From contig CACZZF010000008.1 of assembly GCA_902785575.1 (NCBI GenBank), positions 1 through 64,000 of the forward strand: a stretch of 64,000 nucleotides of DNA, read 5' to 3'. Under the pieces are notes generated by a model. The model ran no database searches. It saw only the letters and a list, made by a program, of their open reading frames with translations, and was not told where the DNA came from. Positions within the stretch are counted from its first letter, which is position 1. Every line of letters starts with the position of its first letter. Below are positions 10,505-15,364 of the stretch, piece after piece. The position numbers and the translations under genes are program-made. This stretch comes from an uncultured Bacteroidia bacterium (GTDB lineage Bacteria > Bacteroidota > Bacteroidia > Bacteroidales > UBA932).

Positions 10505-13500
10505 CTACCGATTTTGCGAAATCGCTTTTCTGAAACGACCTTCGACATCCGAGAGCAGATATAGACCGTCAGCGTTGGGTTCCAAGCCTTTAAGGCATAT
10601 CTGATAACGTGCTGGAGGATTGTCCAGTCCAAGCATAGGCATCTCCCTCAAATTGGAAGGCGACTCATAAGTCAGGAACAATTCAGCGTAACGCTTTCCA
10701 TCCTTACCATCCCAGATGGCGACAACCAGTTTGGAACCGATAGGAGTCTTACGCTCAATGGCTTCCGGAAGCAGATAATCCTCAGACTCCAAAGCGGCCA
10801 ACACACTGCAGATATTTGAATCGTGACCGCATAGGAAACTGAACTTGCGACCAGGCGTCTCCATCTCGGACAGCATGGTTTCCAAAAGCGGATGAGCCAC
10901 ATTGGTGGCGACAATGGGAGCGGCGAAGAGCACATCTCCGTACCAGTCTTTGATTTCCGCGATCTTGGCCCAAGCGTCGAGGGAAATATCATGGCCGAAA
11001 GCGGCCTTCAATTCAGAAGGCTCCTCATAATATTGGAGAACCAAGGCGTCAGAAGCCGAGTTGGCCATCTTGAACCCACCAGTCATAGAAGGCTCCTTAT
11101 GCTCGTTGAATGTTATCTTCAAGTCGTCCGTACGGAACTTGACAGTGTCATTCGCGGCGGCAGGTGACCGCTTGATATCCAACACGTTCTCTAGCACTCT
11201 GAAATTGGGAGCCATCTTTGAGGCGACATCCTCAAGAGTTTTTCCCCCACCCAATCCGATAATCTGACGGATCGCCTCGGAGCGGAACTCATCAGTCACG
11301 TTGGTGATCTGCGGGTTGAAAACCGGATCCATAGTGCCAAGAGGATAGTGATGCTCAATCTTCACATTCGCTATCGGCAGCATGCCACTCGAGAAATACT
11401 GCGCCGTAGCTATAGTCCTTTGCATCGAGTTGGCATAGAAACGCATCGCACCTTCTGCCGGGACCTCATTCTCAACCATCAGGCCCTCACTTATAAGCCA
11501 CCTGCGGAAGAACTGTCCCATCCTAGTCTCCAAGGCGCCACCCTTCAAGGATAGTTCTCCTGGGGCGGATGTCCAGTCGAACCATTTATGAGGGGTAATC
11601 CTTGAAGTGACAGAACCCTTGCCCGACAAGGGCGAACGGATATTATGGCGACTTAAAGCCACGACCTGGCCCAATGAATATTTCTCCTTGAATGCCTTAG
11701 GGCGGTCAGTCCAAGAAGAAGCGGCCGTCTTTGGACTGGACAAATCCGTCCTCTGGATCCGGAACTTGTAGGAATACGTCCCACCGGGCTTGATCTTGTA
11801 CTGAGGGAGGGCGGTAGGACCGCAACTGCCATTGCCGACACCGTCCATAAAGCAATCCAGATTAAGGACAATATCAGGGCGACGCACCTTGTCCAGATCA
11901 TGGAAGTACCTGGCTCTGAATATATCCTCGTCTGTAAAATGCTGTGCGGAGAACTCAAAGGAACCAGCGGCGGAGAACCGGACCGCGACCCCGTCCGCGG
12001 AAGTGAACGTGACCCATCTCGTGTCAGTCCTCTGACCCATCGTCTGGGTGCGGGCGTATGGCTCCACCATGTCGGAAACTGTTGACCTGTAGGTTCCTAG
12101 GAAGGCGGCGTCTTTCCTGTCTCTATAATTCTCCATAGGACCCCGGCCATACCAAGAAACCTCCTCAAAAGATGAATCCAAGAACATGCGGAGCCCCAGC
12201 CTATGAAGGTCGAATCCTTCTCCAGGGTGGAAACTGGCGCTTACATCGACATATCCGTCAGGCGAAACTTCATAAGTCACTGAATAAGGCACAACTACCT
12301 TTCCCACAGTAGCTTCCATATCCGTATCCACACGTAACACTCCCTCAACCGGGGTGGATTTGAAACTTACAAGCCTGCAAGTTGTGGTCAGCGGGTCATG
12401 GAACTGGACCCCAGTAAACCGCGCGGCGTCATTGCTGATGAACCTGTAGCCGTTGAAAAGCGGTTGACCCTGCAAATGAAGAATCTCTTTCCCGTCAAGC
12501 TGAAGGCTTTGGAGGGCGCCCTCAAGTTTATCAAATCTCACGGATATCTTGTCATTCGAGGCGCAAAGGAAACGGTTCTCCTCCGTGTAAACCTTTAGAG
12601 GAGACACTCCATCTGAGGCCTCTGCCTTCAAGACAACCGGTTCCTCGCGGATCACGAACTCCTCGGACGCGACCACGTGACCGACGTCCGCCCAACGAGC
12701 GGCTTCACGTAGGCATACCTCAACCTGCAAGACAACGTCAGCCTCATTATTTGCCAGAACCGCCTTATCCACAGGAAGTTCCACCTGGCAGGATTTCCAC
12801 GGGGCGGTGTCTGGCAGACCGACTACGCCAGAAGCTACCTCCGCGCCATTGTGAAGGACCTTGTAATGCAGATCCATTTGGGAGAGGTTGTAGGTGGTGT
12901 AGCGGTTCTCGAGATTAATCACACACGGGCCCTGAGCCTGTCGAAGGGGTTCCTGAGCTTGTCGAAGGACCGGCCCGGAAATCTTGATGTACTGATAAAC
13001 CTTCTTGACCTGGAGAAGCTTAGCGGTAACGCGGCGATCCGCTGTGACTATACCGTTGAGACAGAAGTCGTTGTCATTAGGCGCATCTCCGAAGGAGCCT
13101 CCAAAATAGATGTTGCCGTTATTCTCGCCGAATCTGGTTATTCCCTGGTCCACCCAGTCCCAGATGCAGGCACCGATCATCCTCTGGGATTTGTTCTCGA
13201 TATAGTCCCAGTACTCAGCCAAATTGCCGATGGCGTTGCCCATGGCGTGGGCATATTCGCAGAGGAAATAAGGCCTTGCGGCACCGTTCCTGTCAGTTCG
13301 CTCCATACCATCCAAAGACGGATACATCTGGGAATCGAAGTCTGCCACACTGTTCATTCCCTCATAGTGGATCGGACGGTCATCCAGCCGACGCACAGCA
13401 TCCCTTTCCGCCACGATATTCGGGCCACCTCCAGACTCGTTCCCGAGAGACCAGAATATGACAGAAGGATGAAGCCTGTCACGCCTTACCATCCTCTCAG

Positions 13501-15364
13501 CCCTATCCACAAAAGCACCTTCCCAAGAGGGTGTCCTGGTTATATTGTGGTTCCCATGGCACTCCTGATCCGCCTCATCGACGATGTAAAGGCCATAATA
13601 GTCGTACATGGCATACATCTTCGGATCGTTCGGATAGTGGCTTGTACGCACTGTGTTGATGTTGTGGCGCTTCATCAGAAGGACGTCCTTCAGCATTGTC
13701 TCGACAGGCACAGCCTTGCCATGAATAGGATCGATGTCGTGACGGTCGGTTCCTTTGAGATAAGTGAGGACTCCGTTGATGTACAACTTGTTATTCTTGA
13801 ACTCAACCTTTCGGAAACCATGGCGCTGGAAGGTGCATTCAAGGGTATTTCCCTCTTTGTCAAGAAGTTCCATCTTGACAGTATAGAGATAGGGATCCTC
13901 GGCAGACCAGAGGTGCGGCTTCTCCACAACAATCCTCGACGCCTCTGTTTTCAGCTCTTTTCCGGATGAGACAGTCTGTAACCCGGACTCCGCTGAACCT
14001 ATCACCTTTCCGTCCTCGTCCAATAATGTGGTTCTCAACTTCGCGGCCGCTGTCTTTCCATCGTTGCGAAGCAAAGCGGAAGCGTCGAGCGTGGCGGATG
14101 TCAAATCCTCATTGAAACCGCTCTTGAGGTCCAGGTCTGACAGATGTATTTTCGGCCGGGCGATAAGATAGACATCCCTATGAATACCCGCCAGGCGGAA
14201 CATGTCCTGATCCTCCAAGTAACTGCCGTCGCTCCACTTGTAGACTTCCACCGCGACAACATTGCGGCCCTTCACGACATATTTTGTGATGTCAAACTCA
14301 GAATCGTTATTGGCTCCCTGGCTATACCCCACCTTCTTGCCATTGACCCAGACATAAAAGGCTGAATACACCCCGTCAAAATGGAGGAATATCTCTTTGC
14401 CGGACCAATCGGACGGAAGTGTGAAATCCCTGCGGTATGATCCTGTGGGATTAGGTTCCGTCACTGTCGTGTAGCCACGCTGAGACTGGATGAAAGGAGG
14501 ATTGTTATAAAAAGGGTATGTGGCATTTGAATATAACGGAGTACCGTAGCCTTGCATCTCCCAGTTAGAAGGAACATCGATCTCATCCCATGAAGATACG
14601 CTATACCCAGGAGCCTGGAATCCGACCGGACGGTCTTCGGGATCGGCCACCCAATTGAATTTCCATTTCCCATTTAGGAGCATATACCTTGAAGACTTCG
14701 ACCGATCCCAGGGCTTAATGTAAGCAGGGTCGGAGATCATCTCCGCGTCTGAGGCGTATGGGATAAAGGTGACATGTCCGGGTAACTTATTGACAGCGAA
14801 TACCTTCTCATTTTCCCAATCATTCTTCGATGATGTTTTAGGAAGTACGAAGTCAGCTTTGACATCCGACTCACGGATGAACCAGCGCTGAAGACTGCTA
14901 TTCTCATCCGGAGAGACCTGGACAACCTCATCCTCAGGCATTCCAGGCTTCAAAAGAGCCAATGCTTTGCCGCTGGAAACACTCGTGAGCGAGAATGAGC
15001 CGTCTTTCCATGAAGAGATCACCCAATGCTGGTTCGGATTGCTCTTGTCGTCCGGCCACTGTATGACTGGATGTCCATCACCAGCGCCTCCCCCGTCATT
15101 ATCCAAACCCTGGTATGAATATGCGTTCACGAGAAGGTAGGTGTCACCTCCAAGAGACCTGATCTGCCATGCCTGGCTGGCGCTCCCTTTATTAAGAGCA
15201 GCGAGGAACATGTGGGTCTCCGCATCAATACTCTCCTTATTATCAATGACATAACCTTCCGGAGTAGCTATAGTGTACACTTTTCGGGGATCAAACTTCT
15301 GAGCGGCGGCGATAAATGTGACCGTCACAAGCGACAACAATAAAACAAGCTTTTTCATTTTCAT
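10505..15364 (-). CDS. Ricin-like lectin - GH2 beta-galactosidase - glucose-1-phosphatase-like fusion
   Basis: 1619 residues with a signal peptide ending near AAAQ. Residues about 25-165 are a ricin-type trefoil with three QxW-like repeats (QAWQI, NQHWVI, LQRWFI). About 185-1190 is a LacZ-like GH2 enzyme: acid/base E643 in GNES, nucleophile E703 in [10 protein letters not shown]. About 1219-1619 is a histidine acid phosphatase resembling E. coli Agp (glucose-1-phosphatase): SRHNIRSPL with catalytic His near 1240, [24 protein letters not shown], and GHDSNI near 1514. All catalytic residues are present, so both halves look active. The start overlaps the upstream stop (ATGA). It may remove galactose and phosphate from one substrate in the periplasm. 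Residues 799-813 come from an inserted DNA repeat. Confidence 0.9.
12927..12976. repeat. Interspersed short repeat, double copy, inside the GH2 fusion gene
   Basis: CTGAGCCTGTCGAAGG (first copy) and CTGAGCTTGTCGAAGG (second) lie side by side between GGGCC and GGCCC ends. The coding frame continues through them as a [15 protein letters not shown]-type stretch at about residue 799-813, between the GH2 catalytic barrel and the following beta-domain. It is the same family as 1642-1675. Confidence 0.8.

Follow-up and report, generated by a model that had tools for sequence, protein, structure and literature searches.

The window analysed here is a 64,000-nucleotide stretch of DNA in which one gene on the minus strand (10505..15364) encodes a protein of 1619 amino acids consisting of a signal peptide, a ricin-type lectin, a GH2 region, a linker and a histidine acid phosphatase. 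The first-pass annotation had described such a three-part fusion in one uninterrupted frame. The 1619 codons are indeed read without any stop and all three parts were recovered; the strand, which that annotation did not give, is minus, as it is for every part of the gene described below. The N-terminus carries a predicted Sec signal peptide (residues 1–22; 15299..15364), recognized by inspection of the translation, with no lipobox cysteine. It is followed by a β-trefoil lectin (residues 36–161; 14882..15259) with the three QxW repeats of the ricin type, at residues 64, 112 and 159. This domain is matched by Pfam RicinB_lectin_2 over residues 36–103 (2.1e-14) and by Ricin_B_lectin over residues 36–161 (8.5e-5, which is under that model's own cut-off), and is predicted to bind glycan.

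The GH2 β-galactosidase-type region (residues 230–1203; 11756..14677) contains the five domains of LacZ in the LacZ order. The N-terminal, immunoglobulin-like and TIM-barrel domains occupy residues 230–795 and are followed by domain 4 (LacZ_4, residues 816–905) and the small-chain domain (Bgal_small_N, residues 937–1203). Alignment with the LacZ sequence of E. coli MG1655 places E643 (13436..13438) at the acid/base E461 and E703 (13256..13258) at the nucleophile E537, the two residues named at first pass, where the enzyme was called complete. Across the catalytic, metal (Mg, Na) and galactose-contact positions of LacZ that were checked, N280, D387, H542, H576, E601, H603, M680, Y681, H706, W735, D764, F767 and N770 are kept in addition to the catalytic pair. 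Two checked positions differ: the loop residue G794 is replaced by alanine, and W999, an aglycone platform found in some GH2 members but not in the whole family, is replaced by Cys1181; the aglycone may therefore not be that of lactose. The cysteine form (GNASC/GNGSC) is common to the lectin–GH2 relatives, and NSWG is found in several more distant GH2 sequences.

The phosphatase domain (residues 1227–1606; 10547..11686) was assigned by Pfam, alignment and structure match. His_Phos_2 matches residues 1231–1561 (1.7e-13) and the score of 51.1 bits lies well above the Pfam cut-off of 23.6. The two signatures of a branch-2 histidine phosphatase, RHxxRxP and a C-terminal HD, are both present: the RHNIRSP motif (11630..11650) begins with RHN at residue 1239 and holds the nucleophile H1240, and the HD motif (H1514-D1515; 10820..10825) holds the general acid D1515, both as aligned with E. 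coli Agp. The resemblance to Agp along the length of the domain, also noticed at first pass, amounts to 146 identical residues of 388 aligned. R17, H18, N19, R21, R94, E196 and D290 of Agp are all kept, of which E196 is presumably important in the Agp structure. Neither enzyme half reaches its NCBIfam equivalog cut-off, the GH2 half scoring 889.1 bits against 999 for Bga2A and the phosphatase half 320.4 bits against 425 for PRK10173 (Agp), about the same as its closest stand-alone relatives; the exact specificity of each is thus not fixed by these scores. In E. coli Agp, H18 is the nucleophile and D290 the general acid, and roles have also been given to N19, R21 and R94 (PMC8938923). The genome from which the window comes encodes another protein, of 708 residues, with a different branch-2 histidine phosphatase domain (L187:529-2655, minus strand).

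The two enzymes are joined by a poorly conserved linker (residues 1205–1226; 11687..11752). A structure model of the C-terminal half (residues 780–1619) has a mean pLDDT of 82.9 and a pTM of 0.53, with low confidence (low pLDDT) in the linker, which would fit two parts without a rigid arrangement. The modelled phosphatase superimposes on E. coli Agp with a Z-score of 51.5 and an r.m.s.d. of 1.7, and the modelled part of the GH2 region matches LacZ structures with Z-scores of about 30. An earlier model built from six sequences was poor (pLDDT 57.5) and was set aside. Between close pairs of sequences, dN/dS is 0.06–0.09 for the GH2 region, 0.04–0.06 for the phosphatase and 0.08–0.16 for the lectin. 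Both enzyme halves are therefore under strong purifying selection, whereas the linker, at about 0.5–0.8 from the small counts that 22 codons provide, is close to unconstrained.

The fusion gene lies in a glycan-degradation locus. Directly upstream is a gene for a DUF4838 and PA14 protein (15361..17640, minus strand), the stop codon of which overlaps the fusion start as ATGA, which suggests translational coupling of the two. Beyond it a conserved cluster (17637..28688, minus strand) encodes GH2, GH78, DUF2490, GH106 and GH3 proteins and a metallo-hydrolase. Downstream, 87 bases past the fusion gene, an AraC-type regulator with a periplasmic-binding-protein-like sensor domain begins (9246..10418, minus strand); between the two, TATATTTGC (10456..10464, minus strand) resembles a Bacteroidota −7 element and is probably part of a separate promoter for the regulator. 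The locus enzymes together comprise GH2, two GH78 (one of which is fused to GH3), GH106, GH3, GH95, GH43 and DUF4838 proteins; genes for GH92, a SusC/SusD pair and GH127 lie farther from the fusion. Also present are two PA14 alkaline-phosphatase-superfamily proteins, a calcineurin-like phosphoesterase and a glycerophosphodiesterase-type protein. The first two are encoded in tandem (6097-9274, minus strand), each joining a fragment of the alkaline phosphatase superfamily to PA14; they are weakly similar to phosphoglycerate mutase and are conserved at the locus. A plausible substrate of the locus as a whole is a plant glycan or glycoconjugate that contains rhamnose and galactose.

Other fused genes are found here. 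The GH78 rhamnosidase–GH3 protein (28704-33143, minus strand) is read in one frame of 1479 residues, and its GH78 part is separate in a congener (G033, L166 9044-11440). At the same locus of a second congener, G112, GH43–CBM6–GH106 and GH43–GH95 fusions are encoded (L071:11926-15588 and L071:15731-18997, both minus strand), neither of which is fused in the window. These neighbours suggest that joins arise easily at this locus.

The first-pass annotation had regarded the domain order as undescribed, and had named absence of the fusion from every close relative as grounds for giving it up. The fusion was also found at this locus, among the same neighbouring genes, in four more genomes: RUI220 (G531), RGIG7547 from water buffalo omasum (G517), RGIG8403 from water deer abomasum (G201) and RUG645 (G316). 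These make five species-level genomes with the window's own, all from one ruminant-gut Bacteroidales genus. In RUG645 both enzyme halves are present and the frame starts inside the lectin, the signal region being damaged or misassembled. Every genome found with the fusion is metagenome-assembled, which is what might lead one to suspect an assembly chimera or a missed frameshift. However, the fusion recurs at one locus with shared neighbours on separate contigs of five species-level genomes (among them JAILLE010000023.1, JAFYYW010000030.1, JAGAFU010000013.1 and ONUG01000011.1), and dN/dS is low on either side of the join, so that an artefact is extremely improbable and was rejected.

The rarity of the arrangement is borne out by wider scans. 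Among 99 genomes of the family no long phosphatase frame was found besides that of the window. An order-wide scan of 295 genomes with the phosphatase alignment gave stand-alone forms only, in 5 of the 294 other genomes, and a phylum-wide PF00328 scan of 296 genomes gave no His_Phos frame longer than 709 amino acids except the fusion of the window; neither the order nor the phylum scan returned an instance outside the genus. Long phosphatase frames in G045, G160 and G278 have no second Pfam domain and are thus not comparable fusions. The long GH2 frames of G087 and G100 contain GEVED domains and not a phosphatase, and that of G087 also has a secretion tail.

Comparison of relatives shows that the slot separating the conserved cluster from the regulator has four alternative contents, next to a constant flank of aminotransferase, epimerase, peptidase and transporter genes. 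It is filled by the fusion in five genomes, by a lectin–GH2 gene without phosphatase in six (G228, G185, G251, G017, G042 and G049), by a stand-alone phosphatase with a lipobox-like signal in three (G191, G112 and RUG14710), and by a phosphatase with an N-terminal lectin–GH2 remnant in two (G495 and RGIG2653). The G495 remnant has 78% identity to GH2 residues 177–203 (E 9e-16) and includes a second piece that matches residues 325–344; in RGIG2653 the similarity is to the lectin N-terminus and is weaker (best E 3e-6). Both of these phosphatases retain the lectin–GH2 type of signal. In a scan of 300 genomes of the genus, none of the six lectin–GH2-only relatives was among the 70 with an Agp-type match.

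As read from these sequences, we favour a history in which the genes fused once, in place, and one half or the other was later lost repeatedly; most simply, two or three lines lost the phosphatase and one lost the GH2 part. The trees can be taken to speak for several independent fusions, since the phosphatase-less G228 and G042 nest inside the fusion carriers in two trees, one built from GH2 and one from three neighbour genes, and a single clade of the five carriers is rejected by each (p 2e-6 and 1e-7, respectively). Recombination between strains could also mix tree signals. The join falls at the identical place in all five genomes, and the phosphatase tree unites the fused and the two remnant-bearing forms in one clade (100/99) with the lipoprotein forms outside; the lectin–GH2 remnants are kept in those two forms, and no examined genome has both genes adjacent and unfused. 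We therefore consider repeated fusion to be doubtful.

The single domains are all from well-known families and it is their combination that appears to be new. The GH2 half shares all five domains, and the equivalents of E461, E537 and the Mg, Na and galactose-contact residues, with LacZ/Bga2A-type enzymes (Thermotoga maritima 6sd0, Bacteroides thetaiotaomicron 3bga and 3dec, E. coli LacZ), and differs from them in being exported, in its N-terminal trefoil and C-terminal phosphatase, and in the cysteine in place of W999. The phosphatase half shares the full-length fold, at about 35–38% identity, the RHN and HD motifs, and the equivalents of R21, R94 and E196 with the periplasmic glucose-1-phosphatase Agp of E. 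coli (1nt4, 6rmr) and with AgpE of E. cloacae (3ntl), but has no signal of its own and is placed behind the GH2 region. Polysaccharide loci are known to encode multicatalytic enzymes, in some of which linkage brings no gain (PMC8417218). Among these multicatalytic enzymes, BeCE15A-Rex8A (PMC8417218) is similar in placing two chemistries in one enzyme of a Bacteroidota locus, in its rare architecture and in its short linker. Enzymes of that type pair an esterase with a glycoside hydrolase, or glycoside hydrolases with each other, whereas the present fusion pairs a phosphomonoesterase, an exo-glycosidase and a lectin. No published fusion of GH2 with a histidine phosphatase was found in the searchable, open-licence literature.

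We infer both activities, the location of the protein and the benefit of the fusion as follows. Two operon neighbours would have fused in place to give one exported protein, probably periplasmic, in which the trefoil would hold on to glycan. To judge from its conserved residues, the GH2 half may act on an oligosaccharide processed by the surrounding locus, releasing terminal β-linked galactose or a close analogue of it. By analogy with E. coli Agp, the other half may cleave small phosphomonoesters, for instance hexose-1-phosphates or inositol phosphates, with a phosphohistidine formed on H1240 and D1515 acting as general acid. The two active sites would act independently, the fusion providing shared expression, shared export and equal amounts of both enzymes, and it would have turned the phosphatase from a lipoprotein into a soluble protein that shares the lectin. 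This secreted multicatalytic enzyme, with two independent activities delivered together, is the reading we hold with reasonable, though not high, confidence.

The first-pass annotation had instead proposed a substrate with galactose and a sugar phosphate close together, or removal of phosphate and then sugar; the identities, active sites and rarity of the fusion stand, and this part of its meaning is weakened. Were phosphate and galactose removed in succession, in either order, from one phosphorylated galactoside, linkage would matter chemically. Intact and constrained sites in five species are consistent with such coupling, and the alkaline-phosphatase-superfamily-like, calcineurin-like and glycerophosphodiesterase genes at the locus make phosphorylated substrates plausible. 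Yet either half has been lost repeatedly from a locus that is otherwise retained, leaving a phosphatase without GH2 in five relatives and a lectin–GH2 without phosphatase in six, which favours independent enzymes delivered together over a coupled two-step reaction. The genus scan gave no Agp-type phosphatase for any of the six, and the near-unconstrained linker, modelled with low confidence, also speaks against coupling; we regard a coupled enzyme as improbable. Somewhat less probable still is an enzyme devoted to a phosphorylated glycan that contains galactose and is handled by no described degradation locus, in which the lectin would hold the substrate, phosphate and galactose would be removed in turn and linkage would bring a measurable gain. 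Alternatively, the phosphatase half may scavenge phosphate or inositol, for example from feed phytate, with no link to glycan, the fusion having been fixed through a chance deletion between neighbours. Agp-type enzymes, going by the family name, also use inositol phosphates, most relatives of the domain are stand-alone proteins encoded outside the locus, and the locus is prone to fusion. The stand-alone form is, however, already present at the glycan locus in G191, G112 and RUG14710, and the association of phosphatase and locus therefore probably predates the fusion; scavenging is in our view possible but rather unlikely. For the jointly delivered, independent enzymes that we prefer, the strong constraint on both halves in five species leaves room for linkage to bring some advantage besides joint delivery.

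The fusion would add a phosphomonoesterase to the activities that Bacteroidota fuse to glycosidases, and it suggests that a locus rich in rhamnosidases acts on substrates carrying phosphate in these bacteria of the ruminant gut. With separate, fused, left-deleted and right-deleted forms, this one locus also offers a natural series for asking whether fusion helps.

Some smaller differences were observed within the window. At the boundary of the GH2 TIM barrel and domain 4, sequence comparison reveals an in-frame insert of a palindromic-type repeat (12929..12971, minus strand) with two units of the motif CTTCGACAGGCTCAGG; the insert is shorter in G531 and absent in G517, and a further copy of this type of motif lies inside a transporter gene (1656-1672). 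The fusion ends in SQNR (10505-10550, minus strand) where its relatives end in AAY or EAY followed by a stop, and in comparison with G531 about 40 bases near the old stop appear to have been deleted. Elsewhere, a phage-type integrase gene (50671-51687, minus strand) adjoins the SusC/SusD genes and two archaeal-type ATPases are encoded at 40271-41407 and 49307-50389, which are possible traces of mobile elements in the glycan locus.
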